Positions 54,334 to 62,625 of a stretch of DNA of 64,000 nucleotides are shown here, piece by piece. The stretch is from Natrinema salifodinae (GTDB lineage: Archaea; Halobacteriota; Halobacteria; Halobacteriales; Natrialbaceae). The stretch is from NCBI RefSeq assembly GCF_900110455.1, contig NZ_FOIS01000002.1, forward strand, positions 434,001 to 498,000. Reading direction: 5' to 3'. A program made the translations under genes and the position numbers. The stretch's first letter is position 1. Every line of letters starts with the position of its first letter. The notes beneath the pieces were generated by a model. That model did no database searches. It saw only the letters and a list, made by a program, of their open reading frames with translations, and was not told the DNA's origin.

Positions 54334-55374
54334 TTATTGATACCACGGTGAATTTCTCTGCGGGTCCGGGGACTCGTTTTCGTTGCTATCGTCTTCGAGC
54401 AGCGCGGTATTGGCGACCAGAAAGTCGGTAAATAGATATTCGATAAACTCCTCCTCATAGTCTTCCTTCAACTCCCAGAACAGGTAGGTAAACAGTGCGT
54501 AGCCGAGACAGATCGTCCAAACGGACATCCAGAGGTCGAACGCTACTGGCCGCCAGGGTTCTATCCCAAGCGTCGTAGAGAGAAACGAGACGATCCGTGG
54601 ACACGACTGCGCGATGCCGATGAAAACCATCAGTACAAACGATGAGTAACACGAGATCCACATTCCCCGATGGAAATTGCGGAGGGCCTGAAATCGAAAC
54701 GCCCTCGAGCTCTGAGTGTGGCTCTCGACATCGCTTGACATCAGATGCAAGAGATCCCCGTATTCGTTATATGTGGAATCCAAGTCGTACTTCACCCGGC
54801 AAACGGTCCACGCCTTCCCCGCGACCGTCACGTCCGAAAGGGGGCGATCTCGTTTGATCCGTACCATCACGATCGCTTCGATTATCGCCCGGTAGAAGCG
54901 GGCCGGAATACGCTTTGATCGGTCCGTGATCGGTTCGCTCTTCGGTATTTGATCGTCAACGGATGACGTATCTTCCTCGGACTTGGAGCCAACGTTGAGG
55001 GCGTCATCGAGGTTCCGCTCCGCCGGTTCGTTGGGATGCAAACGCGAATAGATGCCGTACAAGCGGGGATGCACTGTCGGATTCGTGTCGAAATTAAGAA
55101 CGGGGGATCGACCGAGACTCTGGTGGAGAAGGATCGAATTTCGGAACGTTTCCCGTTGGCCAACCGCTCGAGCGGCGTAACTCTGGATTAGATGGCCGAG
55201 CGCGAACGTGATGACGCCGAGAACGAGAACTACTGCGAGCGATGGCGAAGTAACTTCCTCGAGGCGGTCACTTGGAACGAGCAGGAGTACGCTCCCCATC
55301 AGAACGACGCCCGGTACGAAGTTACCCAGCAGATCGAAAACGGAGAGGTCCCCGAATACCCTTCCGAGAGGCAT
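54334..55374 (-). CDS. Membrane protein of unknown function, lower GC
   Basis: This 346-residue protein has an N-terminal pair of membrane helices (about 14-32 VFDLLGNFVPGVVLMGSVLLL and 45-65 LAVVLVLGVITFALGHLIQSY), a long cytoplasmic or external part rich in charged residues (about 70-240) and a second pair (about 244-262 and 280-303). I know no family. Base composition is lower than that of neighbours, suggesting transfer. It may work with the small protein that converges with it. The C-terminus ends in an acidic tail. Confidence 0.6.
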   Translation of the reverse strand: MPLGRVFGDLSVFDLLGNFVPGVVLMGSVLLLVPSDRLEEVTSPSLAVVLVLGVITFALGHLIQSYAARAVGQRETFRNSILLHQSLGRSPVLNFDTNPTVHPRLYGIYSRLHPNEPAERNLDDALNVGSKSEEDTSSVDDQIPKSEPITDRSKRIPARFYRAIIEAIVMVRIKRDRPLSDVTVAGKAWTVCRVKYDLDSTYNEYGDLLHLMSSDVESHTQSSRAFRFQALRNFHRGMWISCYSSFVLMVFIGIAQSCPRIVSFLSTTLGIEPWRPVAFDLWMSVWTICLGYALFTYLFWELKEDYEEEFIEYLFTDFLVANTALLEDDSNENESPDPQRNSPWYQ

Positions 55375-58094: not shown

Positions 58095-58226
58095 GCGGCG
58101 CGACTCCGTTTCACGTCACCTTCTTCGTTCCCGTCCCGCCGTCCGCCCCCTCCACGTTTTTCGGCTGTTGCCGGGTCTAGCATTAACTGAGCGTATCTGT
58201 TCGTATACTGATCACCTAGCGTGCGT

Positions 58227-58257: not shown

Positions 58258-61200
58258 ATGTCTGGGACGAACGAGATCACGACCGGCTCGGGAGACGGAC
58301 AGGGACAGGAACAGAAACGGAGCGACGGACTCGAAGTCACCGTCGGCATCGACCGCCTCGAGAACTTCTTGACGGCCGACGACCCCGAGGTCAGGGAGTA
58401 CGCGGCCCGGACGCTGGCCGACCAGGCGGCCGACAGACCAGGCGACGTGCGATCGACGGTAGCGACGCTGACCGAGCGCCTCGACGACGAGCCGCCGATC
58501 AGAACGCACGCGGCCGCGGCCCTGGCGGCCGTCGCGGCCGTCTACCCCGAGGCGACCCAGGACGGTGTCCCCTCGCTGACGGACCGACTCGAGGGATCAG
58601 CGGCCGTCCGCGCGGACGCGGCGGACGCGCTCGCCTCGATCGCGGCCGCCGAGCCGGCGGCCGTCGCCGACTCCGCGACGGTCCTGGCGGCGTACGTCAC
58701 CGACGAGGAGGAACGCGTGCGGATCCGGACGACGGAGGCGCTCGCGGCGATCGCCGACGCGGCCCCCGAGCGAGTCGCGCCGGTCGCCGACGACGTGGCG
58801 GCCGCAATCGACGACGGAACTGCCACGGTTCGGGAACACGCGACGGCGGTTCTGGCGACCGTCGCCGCTCACGATCCCGAGGCGGTCCCCGCCGTCGACT
58901 CCGATCCCAACGACGACGTCGACGCCGACGTCATCACCGATACCGATGCCGTCGCACGCCTGGTCGACCGCCTCGACGACGAGCCGGCGATCAGGGACCA
59001 CGCGGCGCGGGCGATCCGCGCGCTCGCGGCCGACCGGCCGACGGCGGTCGCGGCGACGGTCGAACCGATCGCGGCGGCGCTCGCGGACGATCGCGAGTCC
59101 GTTCGAGCCGACGTCGCCACGGCGCTCGCCGCCGTCGCGGCGGACCGCCCGGACGCCATCGCCGGCGCCGACAGCACAGTCGTCGACGACCTCGCTGCGA
59201 GCCTCGACGACGATCCCGCCGTCCGCCAGGAGACCGTCCGCGCGCTGCGTTCCGTCGCCGAGAGCGCCCCCGACGCGGTCGTGCCGGCCGTCGACGCACT
59301 CGTCGATCGGCTCGACGATTCGATCGCAGAGATCCGAACCGACGCGGCCGCGACGCTCGCGATCCTGGCCGACGCCCGCGTCGAGGGAGTCGAACCCGCC
59401 GTCGAACCGCTCGCGGGTCGCCTGGCCCGCGACGAGCCGACGGTCCGGCGCCACGGGGTCGCTGCTATCGCCGCGGTCGCCGACGACGCGCCCGCGGCGG
59501 TCGAACCCGTCGTCGCCGAACTCGCCGGGGTGCTCGAGGATGGGGACGAAACCGTTCGGCTCGCGGCCGCTCGGGCCATCGCGGCCGTCGCGGAAACAGC
59601 GCCCGACTCGGTCCGCCCGGTCGCGCCCCGCCTGGCCGACCGCCTCGACGATCCCCACGAGCCGGTCCGTCATCGGGCGGCCGATGCACTCGCTCCGATC
59701 GCGGTCGCATCGGCTCCCGACGAGGCCGACGTCCGGGCGCTCGCCGACCGCCTGGCGGACGCGGAGCGCGACGAGTGGGTCCGCGGGGACGCCGCCCGCA
59801 GGCTGGCCGACATCGCCGACACGGGCGCCGGCGACGCCCATCCCGCGATCCGATCGCTACGGCGGCGGCTCGCGGACGACGGCGCGGCGGTGCGCCGCGC
59901 GGCCGCGCGGGACCTGGTCCGGCTCGCGGGCGAGCGCCCCGGGGAACTCCGCGGGACCGTCCCGGCGCTCGGCGACCGGCTCGCGGACGACGACGCGAGC
60001 GTCCGGAACAACGCCGCGCTGGCGCTCGCGCGGATCGCCGAGTGGAGCGGATCGACGGGGACGGACGCGCTCCGGCCCGCGCTGGCCGGGCTGTTCGGCG
60101 CGCTCGACGATTCGGACCGCAGCGTCCGCGGGACCGTCCGCCGGGCGCTCACCGAGGTCGCTCCCGACGAGTCGGGCGACTGCCGCCCGACGGTCGCCCT
60201 GGCAGTCGCGGAGACGAACGCCAACGACGAGGCGATCCGGGTCGCTGCCTGCGCGGCGCTGAGCGCGCTCAAGATCGAGAGCGACGCCGAGGCGGCGGCC
60301 GCCGTCGAGGCCGTCTGCGACGCGCTCGTCGAGCCGACACCGACCGTCCGCGCCGCGGCGCTGGACGCCCTCGAGACGCTGCTCGCCGCGGACGGCGAGA
60401 CGAAGACCGGGCCGGCGCCGATCGAAGTCGTCCGCGACCGTCTGGCGGCCGGCGACGAGCGCTCGGCGGCGGTCGCAGCGGCCCTCGCCGACGTCGCCAG
60501 GCGGAACCCGGAACTGATCACCGACGCGGCGACGCCGCTGTGCGACCGGCTGCGGGCGGCGGACGGCGACGAGCGCCGGGCGCTCGCCCGCGCGCTGACG
60601 ACGGCGCTCGCGGCGGCCGACCGGCGACCGGTCACGGCCCGCCTGTGCGACGACCTCGACTCCGATTCGGGGGATCGACGGGCCGTCGCGAGCGAGATCG
60701 CTCGCCTGGCGGCCGTCGCGCCCGGCGACGCGGCGACCGCGCAGGATCGCCTGGTCGACCTGCTGGCGATCGACGACGAAGCGGTTCGCGGGTACGCGGC
60801 GCTCGCGCTCGGCACGCTCGCGGTGACGGGACGGGACGACGGGTCGGCGCTGGCCGAAGCGCTCGAGCGGCTCGACGATCGGTCGGTCGACGCCGCCGCG
60901 TTCGTCAGCGGCGGCGAGACGCCGACCAACGCGGACGGCCTCGACGCCGAACTCTCCGAACTGGGGCGACGCTTCGACGACGACCCGTGGGCGGCTGGCC
61001 TGGCCGTGCTCGCGGTGTCCGCACTCGCCGACGAGTCCGACCGCCTGCGCGAGACCGGGCTGTCGACGATCGGCGACGCGCTTTCGGCCGAGAGCCGGGT
61101 CGTACGCGTCACCGCTGGCCGGACGCTCGCGACGATGGCCGACGACGATCCCCACGGGTTCGACGCGGCGACCGACGACCTGCTCGCGGCGCTGTCTGAT

Positions 61201-62625
61201 TCCGACGCCGACGTCCGGGCGACGGCCGGCCAGGCGGTCGCCGAGGTCGCCGAAGTCACCGGCGGGATCGAGGGTGGGACCCGTAGTCTCGAGGCGATCG
61301 CGGCCGAACTCCGTCCCCGCCTGGCCGATCCGGACGGGCGCGTTCGAGCGGCCGCGATCCGGACGCTGGCGGCCGTCGAAGCCGTCGACCCGCTGCCCGC
61401 GGTTCGGCCGCTGGTCGACGACCCCGTGCCGGCGGTCTCGGGCGCCGCGACGGCCGCGACGGAGCGCCTCGAACACGTCCGCGACCGCGAGTCGGCGACC
61501 CGGCGCGCCTGGCCGATGGCCGGCGCCGGCCCGGCGCGGACGGGGCACGTCCCGGACGGCGATTCGCTGCCGCTTCGCCGGCGACCGACGACGCAGTGGC
61601 GCGTCGGGTCGGCTGGGGGCGACGCGCCGCCGGCGCTGGTCGACGATACCGTCTTCGCGGCGAGCGAGGACGGCCTGGCCGCGCTGGCGCTCGGGGGCGG
61701 GGACGAGCGCTGGCGGACCGAGACCGACGCGCCGGTCGAGACGACGCCCGCGGTCGTCGACGACACCGTCTACGTCGCCGGCGAGACGGCGGTCGCCGCG
61801 CTCGCAACCGAGACGGGCGAGCGGGCCTGGCGGTACCGGACGGACGCCCCCGTCCGAACGGCGCCGATCGTCGCCGACGGAACGGTCTACGTCGGCGGCG
61901 AGGCCCTCCACGCGATCGACGCCGAGACCGGGCAACCGGCCTGGTCGGTGCCGATCGACGGCTCTCTCGTCGGACTCGCCGTCGACGACGGGGTCGTCTA
62001 CGCGACCGGCGAGGAGCGCGTGCTCGCGGTGGCGGCCGCGGACGGGCGCCGCCACTGGGAGACGACCATCGACGCCGCGGGCGAGATTCGGACGGGGCCT
62101 GCGGTCGCGGACGGCCGTCTCTACGTCGGCTGTGACGACCGGCTCCACGCGCTGTCGACCGCCGACGGCTCCCGGCGGTTCCGGTTCGACACCGGCGGCC
62201 GGCTCGTCGCGTCGCCGGCCGTCGCGGACGGCCGCGTCTACGCCGCCAGCGCCGACGGGAGCGTCTACGCGATCGACGCGGCGACGGGCGCCGAAGCCTG
62301 GCGGGCCGCCGTCGGCGAGGCGGTGACCGACCCGGTCGTCGTCGACGGCCTGGTCTGTCTGGGTACCGCCGACGGGCGCGTCCGGACGCTGGCGGCCGCC
62401 GACGGATCGCAGCGGTGGGCCCTCGAGTCGCCGGTCGACGACGTCGTGGGCGCGGGCGCGAGCGCGGATGCAGACTCAGATCCGGGCACGGCGTCGATCG
62501 CGGTCGCGAGCGGTCGCCTCTGTCTCGCCGGTCCGGACGGACTCGCCGCGATCGGGAACGGGCAGTCGTCGTGGAAGGAATCGCTCTCCGGGCTGTTCAC
62601 GCGGTTCGGATCCGACGCGCCGTAG
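58258..62625 (+). CDS. Cytoplasmic HEAT-repeat / PQQ-like beta-propeller fusion protein
   Basis: The 1455-residue protein has no signal peptide or membrane segment. Residues about 30-1080 are roughly 25 HEAT-type repeats, seen as VREYAARTLADQAADRP, IRTHAAAALAAVAAVYPEA, VRADAADALASIAAAEP, and similar units of about 40 residues. From about 1083 (WPMAGAGPARTGHVPDG) to 1440 is a PQQ-like propeller with seven blade ends such as GGGDERW, ETGERAW, ETGQPAW, ADGRRHW, ADGSRRF, ATGAEAW and ADGSQRW. HEAT repeats bind proteins or nucleic acid; the propeller may bind protein or ligand. The combination suggests a large scaffold. I assign no pathway. It follows topA, whose link is unknown. Confidence 0.8.
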   Translation: MSGTNEITTGSGDGQGQEQKRSDGLEVTVGIDRLENFLTADDPEVREYAARTLADQAADRPGDVRSTVATLTERLDDEPPIRTHAAAALAAVAAVYPEATQDGVPSLTDRLEGSAAVRADAADALASIAAAEPAAVADSATVLAAYVTDEEERVRIRTTEALAAIADAAPERVAPVADDVAAAIDDGTATVREHATAVLATVAAHDPEAVPAVDSDPNDDVDADVITDTDAVARLVDRLDDEPAIRDHAARAIRALAADRPTAVAATVEPIAAALADDRESVRADVATALAAVAADRPDAIAGADSTVVDDLAASLDDDPAVRQETVRALRSVAESAPDAVVPAVDALVDRLDDSIAEIRTDAAATLAILADARVEGVEPAVEPLAGRLARDEPTVRRHGVAAIAAVADDAPAAVEPVVAELAGVLEDGDETVRLAAARAIAAVAETAPDSVRPVAPRLADRLDDPHEPVRHRAADALAPIAVASAPDEADVRALADRLADAERDEWVRGDAARRLADIADTGAGDAHPAIRSLRRRLADDGAAVRRAAARDLVRLAGERPGELRGTVPALGDRLADDDASVRNNAALALARIAEWSGSTGTDALRPALAGLFGALDDSDRSVRGTVRRALTEVAPDESGDCRPTVALAVAETNANDEAIRVAACAALSALKIESDAEAAAAVEAVCDALVEPTPTVRAAALDALETLLAADGETKTGPAPIEVVRDRLAAGDERSAAVAAALADVARRNPELITDAATPLCDRLRAADGDERRALARALTTALAAADRRPVTARLCDDLDSDSGDRRAVASEIARLAAVAPGDAATAQDRLVDLLAIDDEAVRGYAALALGTLAVTGRDDGSALAEALERLDDRSVDAAAFVSGGETPTNADGLDAELSELGRRFDDDPWAAGLAVLAVSALADESDRLRETGLSTIGDALSAESRVVRVTAGRTLATMADDDPHGFDAATDDLLAALSDSDADVRATAGQAVAEVAEVTGGIEGGTRSLEAIAAELRPRLADPDGRVRAAAIRTLAAVEAVDPLPAVRPLVDDPVPAVSGAATAATERLEHVRDRESATRRAWPMAGAGPARTGHVPDGDSLPLRRRPTTQWRVGSAGGDAPPALVDDTVFAASEDGLAALALGGGDERWRTETDAPVETTPAVVDDTVYVAGETAVAALATETGERAWRYRTDAPVRTAPIVADGTVYVGGEALHAIDAETGQPAWSVPIDGSLVGLAVDDGVVYATGEERVLAVAAADGRRHWETTIDAAGEIRTGPAVADGRLYVGCDDRLHALSTADGSRRFRFDTGGRLVASPAVADGRVYAASADGSVYAIDAATGAEAWRAAVGEAVTDPVVVDGLVCLGTADGRVRTLAAADGSQRWALESPVDDVVGAGASADADSDPGTASIAVASGRLCLAGPDGLAAIGNGQSSWKESLSGLFTRFGSDAP

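Follow-up and report, generated by a model that had tools for sequence, protein, structure and literature searches.

A giant HEAT-repeat/PQQ-propeller fusion protein of the Natrialbaceae and its possible role as a cytoplasmic scaffold

Results

A 1455-residue fusion protein in Natrinema salifodinae

The 64,000-nucleotide stretch of the Natrinema salifodinae genome analysed here (contig NZ_FOIS01000002.1, positions 434,001 to 498,000; hereafter the window) contains, on its forward strand, an open reading frame for a protein in which a long array of HEAT repeats is followed by a PQQ-like propeller. This giant protein is real, assembled from known parts, and undescribed in the literature searched, in which no publication describing an archaeal HEAT-PQQ fusion came to light. 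To that extent the suggestion, made in a preliminary description of this DNA, that no characterised archaeal protein has such an architecture still holds. The gene and its parts are as follows (AF2, AlphaFold2; pLDDT, its per-residue confidence; dN/dS, ratio of non-synonymous to synonymous rates; pN, proportion of non-synonymous differences).

58258-62625, plus strand: HEAT-repeat/PQQ-like propeller fusion protein, 1455 residues (open reading frame and translation, Pfam, orthologs, dN/dS)
58342-61488, plus strand: HEAT solenoid, residues ~29-1077, ~27 units, 25 of them clear (repeat scan, AF2 mean pLDDT 77.8, Pfam)
61489-61620, plus strand: low-confidence linker, residues 1078-1121 (AF2 pLDDT)
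61621-62556, plus strand: eight-bladed PQQ/BamB-like propeller, residues 1122-1433 (Pfam PQQ_2 6.8e-45, AF2, Foldseek)
62566-62607, plus strand: C-terminal amphipathic helix, residues 1437-1450, SWKESLSGLFTRFG (cross-genus conservation, hydrophobic moment, AF2, pN)
58178-58188, plus strand: upstream element TAGCATTAACT, consensus TAG[A/C]ATTAACT (scan of gene-bearing and gene-less loci)

The frame is not a chance one, since orthologs are found in 36 genomes and dN/dS in close pairs lies mostly between 0.1 and 0.4, indicating purifying selection, albeit not strong. The ATG at 58258 is supported as the start because most orthologs use the equivalent codon. Pfam detected HEAT_2 over 10 stretches (2.1e-35) and PQQ_2 at the C-terminal end, with PQQ also matched. 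Together with structure prediction, these matches and the intact frame confirm the HEAT-then-propeller order originally proposed. The predicted isoelectric point is 4.3. The protein has no signal peptide at its N-terminus and nowhere a stretch of transmembrane strength (the highest Kyte-Doolittle 19-residue average, 1.43, falls within the propeller), in agreement with the cytoplasmic character that had been assigned to it.

The HEAT solenoid is long and keeps its register

In a scan with a repeat profile trained on the protein itself, residues 31 to 1051 resolved into 25 clear HEAT units, each ~37 residues long, and two weak gaps of roughly unit size. The clear units match the earlier estimate of about 25, and the gaps bring the total to ~27. 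An AF2 model of residues 1-1085 (mean pLDDT 77.8) was helical until residue 1077, its 59 helices corresponding to ~27-28 units, and the solenoid was continuous. When this half was submitted to Foldseek, the best matches were CAND1 and karyopherin-beta2, which share the long HEAT superhelix but lack a propeller; with a TM-score of ~0.28 and ~14% identity, this is a likeness of repeat type and not of family.

Comparison of orthologs from six genera showed that the same-index HEAT unit was the best match in 18-25 of 25 cases, and that indels within the protein span 13-28 residues, with none of repeat length. With a fixed number of units, each position having its own identity, the solenoid would suit one defined binding surface better than an array for variable recognition. 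The protein of the window species has two private insertions, at residues 211-228 (58888-58941) and 1392-1405 (62431-62472).

The propeller has eight blades and resembles BamB

A second AF2 model, covering residues 300-1455, showed the solenoid and ended in a short free helix; between them lie a linker modelled at low confidence and a propeller of eight blades (pLDDT mostly 80-92). Seven blades had been counted in the preliminary description; the repeat scan, AF2 and Foldseek all give eight. Both models were built from alignments of only four sequences and had predicted template modelling scores of 0.38 and 0.47, so that the overall curvature and the relative placement of the two halves are not reliable. 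The pLDDT of the C-terminal model is below 50 at residues 1048-1121; in the N-terminal model, residues 1045-1077 are helical. The linker proper, residues 1078-1121, contains a conserved tryptophan (W1085) and probably holds the strand that closes the propeller.

BamB headed the Foldseek matches to the propeller (E 1.2e-15), both being PQQ-type propellers of eight blades. However, BamB is an exported lipoprotein without a HEAT part, whereas the propeller in the window is cytoplasmic and fused to HEAT repeats, and the NCBIfam BamB model TIGR03300 scored below its cut-off (135.6 of 285.2 bits). Several of the best-matching single-domain haloarchaeal propellers likewise carry Tat-like or lipoprotein-like N-termini, which suggests that the propeller of the HEAT-PQQ protein works in another compartment than they do.

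The matches to Pfam PQQ and PQQ_2 might be taken to indicate a PQQ-dependent dehydrogenase, or some other propeller enzyme, mounted on a HEAT arm. Yet the dehydrogenase models stayed at least 8-fold below their cut-offs (TIGR03075, 56.1 of 480 bits; TIGR03074, 27.9 of 832.65), the best fold match is to the non-enzymatic BamB, an export signal is absent and no catalytic domain is recognisable in the protein. On the model cut-offs we reject an enzyme of this kind, to which we allow next to no probability.

A conserved amphipathic helix at the C-terminus

Beyond the propeller, a tail of approximate sequence S[SA][WL]..S[IL]SGLFTRFG (core SISGLFTRFG) is retained across the genera, including the one most distant from Natrinema, in which overall identity is 40-45%. 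Its hydrophobic moment of ~0.6 was matched by 0.4-7% of shuffles of the same residues, and its pN was 0-0.024 in five of six close pairs. By entropy the tail lies at the 67th percentile, that is, above average in conservation without being the most conserved part of the protein; AF2 rendered it as a free helix (residues 1439-1447) at low confidence. Such an amphipathic tail could possibly dock the protein to a membrane or to a partner, and is suggestive, no further, of membrane localisation. The core motif has one other match in the window genome, near the N-terminus of a membrane protein; this anecdotal match would hint at membrane affinity and nothing beyond.

Solenoid, propeller and amphipathic tail within one protein also recall the membrane coats of eukaryotes, and coat-like proteins have been described in bacteria of the Planctomycetes-Verrucomicrobia-Chlamydiae group (PMC2799638), so that the protein might shape or line the inner membrane. 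The hallmark of such coats, according to those authors, is an N-terminal propeller followed by a C-terminal alpha-solenoid (PMC2799638). The likeness thus extends to the presence of both folds in a single chain, but the order here is the opposite, and no vesicle machinery was recognised nearby. We consider a coat function improbable.

The fusion is confined to part of the Natrialbaceae

A family-wide search with a 253-residue segment of the protein found the gene in 36 of 125 Natrialbaceae genomes, belonging to 6 of 29 genera, nearly always as a single frame of ~1390-1530 residues. All 36 carry the fusion (one split across two contigs, two as shortened frames); the preliminary description had raised the prospect of the two halves occurring separately in all relatives, and the opposite was seen. 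Full-length orthologs from Natrinema and Natronorubrum are 51-68% identical, and 16 of 29 congeners have the gene, the window genome included. Among the 391 genomes of the class that were searched, no giant form was present outside the Natrialbaceae, all strong matches lying inside the family.

Several genomes without the gene show a clean empty site, with thioredoxin-like or methyltransferase genes lying no more than a few hundred bases after topA. The gene tree groups most genera as clades, some nodes being weak, which agrees with vertical inheritance and several losses. Its branches are several times longer than those of TopA. A plasmid or phage origin was rejected: the chromosomal place is fixed, and no plasmid or phage match was found.

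An upstream element accompanies the gene, and topA does so only in part

The element TAG[A/C]ATTAACT lies ~70-100 bp 5' of the start codon, inside a longer motif of approximate form GG.GTAGAATTAACT. Each of the 22 gene-bearing loci scanned has it, three of them with no topA in the vicinity, and it is absent from 17 loci downstream of topA that lack the HEAT-PQQ gene; in one ortholog beyond those 22 (L017) it is degenerate. The extended motif has a chance expectation of zero in the window. The element is most likely the gene's own promoter or operator. Its conservation is unusually high for an archaeal upstream region. Exact copies elsewhere in 15 genomes were about as frequent as those of a reversed control, and hence give no sign of a regulon; a regulon sharing the element was rejected on this basis.

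The position of the gene raises the question of a factor associated with topoisomerase I, given that in 18 of the 31 genomes examined its immediate upstream neighbour, in the same orientation, is topA. Nine others, however, have a solute-binding-protein gene in its place, three lack topA within 4-5 kb (the remaining one is left unassigned), many relatives have topA without the HEAT-PQQ gene, and the latter has its own upstream element. In the two of these nine with longer flanks, that gene belongs to a solute-binding-protein/permease pair standing between topA and the HEAT-PQQ gene, and the pair also follows topA in two genomes devoid of the HEAT-PQQ gene. A TopA factor is in our estimation very improbable, and gene order rules out a topA operon. 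The linkage to topA is positional, as the preliminary description had allowed when it called the neighbourhood perhaps chance; the HEAT-PQQ gene is accessory and not part of a topA unit. The downstream thioredoxin-like and methyltransferase genes were rejected as partners, being present also where the HEAT-PQQ gene is missing.

Three further observations concern these neighbourhoods. In some genomes of two genera a solute-binding-protein/amino-acid-permease pair (e.g. L076:5548-8804) is arranged head to head with the HEAT-PQQ gene. In two congeners (L098, genome G009; L099, genome G004) the topA frame is ~1380 residues long and TopA is split around residue 500, probably by an intein. The window also encodes, at 54334-55374 on the minus strand, a predicted membrane protein of 346 residues with no Pfam match.

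Related repeat-propeller proteins and a possible link to defence

The architecture is not unique to the giant form: uniqueness was rejected on finding HEAT-PQQ proteins in two other haloarchaeal families. The smaller (L174:2258-3745, plus strand, genome G305) has 496 residues, matches HEAT_2 (1.1e-6) and PQQ_2 (2.4e-53) and lacks a signal peptide. It is collinear with residues 1015-1434 of the window protein, that is, the last HEAT units, the junction and the propeller (33% identity, E 7.7e-34), but its HEAT units number only 2-3 and it lacks the tail. The larger (L119:5703-11537, minus strand, genome G030), from a third family, has 1944 residues with HEAT repeats along much of its length, a terminal propeller and no signal peptide; over the same region it is 30% identical to the window protein (447 columns, E 7e-33). 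That the junction is shared while solenoid lengths differ greatly suggests a single old fusion with later gain of repeats; alternatively, common domains may have fused independently. No HEAT repeats were seen in the inspected parts of other large PQQ frames. A pentapeptide-repeat/PQQ-propeller fusion without a signal peptide (L176:722-2437, genome G216) represents a further cytoplasmic repeat-propeller type.

Immediately 3' of the L119 gene, in the same orientation and in an apparent operon (L119:2521-11537), are genes for a MoxR-type AAA protein and a von Willebrand factor A (vWA) protein. The AAA protein scored just below the cut-off of PF20030 bpMoxR (26.1 against 27 bits), and the vWA protein has no propeller by Pfam. 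Another vWA homolog is encoded ~16 kb away on this contig. This arrangement recalls the ternary MoxR-vWA-beta-propeller systems of biological conflict (Kaur et al. 2020, PMC7159879), in which case the HEAT-PQQ protein could be a defence sensor or scaffold resembling their third component, its superhelical repeats and propeller sensing an invader or assembling around one; the patchy distribution and fast evolution of the gene would agree with such a role. On the other hand, a relative of the L119 vWA protein was found in 0 of 20 carrying genomes tested (E 1e-5), the flanks contain no recognised effector or defence gene, PADLOC matches were confined to HEAT regions, and both the invariant repeat number and the fixed chromosomal place, free of plasmid or phage matches, speak against it. 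The likeness to the ternary systems comes through the distant relative L119, which adjoins MoxR and vWA genes, whereas the window gene has no recognised MoxR or vWA partner in its flanks. Moreover, a feature of those systems, a vWA protein fused to a C-terminal propeller, is not seen by Pfam even beside L119, so that the L119 set would be at most a variant of them. On present evidence the window protein is not a member, and we regard a defence role, the main rival to the interpretation given below, as tentative.

Discussion

The results presented here are best accounted for by a non-catalytic cytoplasmic scaffold whose tail is docked to a membrane or a partner, a reading to which we assign a probability of about one half. 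A scaffold role had been suggested at the outset and is still the best interpretation, a coat protein, a TopA factor and a PQQ enzyme all being unlikely. The sequence, or prediction from it, gives the domains and their order, the number of blades, the conservation, the fixed repeat number, the upstream element and the presence or absence of the gene; the scaffolding, the docking by the tail and the promoter function of the element we infer. The long HEAT superhelix, with its fixed register, would offer a position-specific surface on which a partner protein or a complex could bind, and the eight-bladed BamB-like propeller, carried on a flexible linker, could provide another platform for binding proteins. 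The amphipathic helix at the C-terminus may then dock this assembly, either on the cytoplasmic side of the membrane or in a partner, the whole being the product of an accessory gene expressed from what would be its own promoter.

Several observations weigh against this scaffold reading. Of the 125 family genomes, 89 lack the gene, which is therefore dispensable in those. The tail helix is short and modelled at low confidence, two orthologs end early (in SGLFGG or SGLFGGR), and the other haloarchaeal HEAT-PQQ proteins, L119 and L174, have no such tail. Finally, protein binding is general to HEAT and propeller domains, and hence no specific role is identified. Since both are common folds, what we describe is an undescribed lineage-specific putative scaffold and not a new kind of fold.

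A broader proposal would be a haloarchaeal class of cytoplasmic solenoid-propeller scaffolds that share a homologous junction and differ in the number of HEAT units (2-3, ~27 and more), the Natrialbaceae form, with its tail helix and own promoter, organising a membrane-associated complex and the largest form a MoxR-vWA chaperone machine; taken as a whole we consider this distinctly doubtful.

Most known giant HEAT scaffolds and solenoid-propeller proteins are eukaryotic. The present protein provides a workable archaeal case, in that a 1455-residue fusion has stayed in register over six genera, has its own upstream element and is naturally present or absent among congeners. Forms that carry 2-3, ~27 or still more HEAT units next to a homologous junction make the growth of such a scaffold traceable, and the MoxR and vWA genes beside the largest form offer a testable lead to function.

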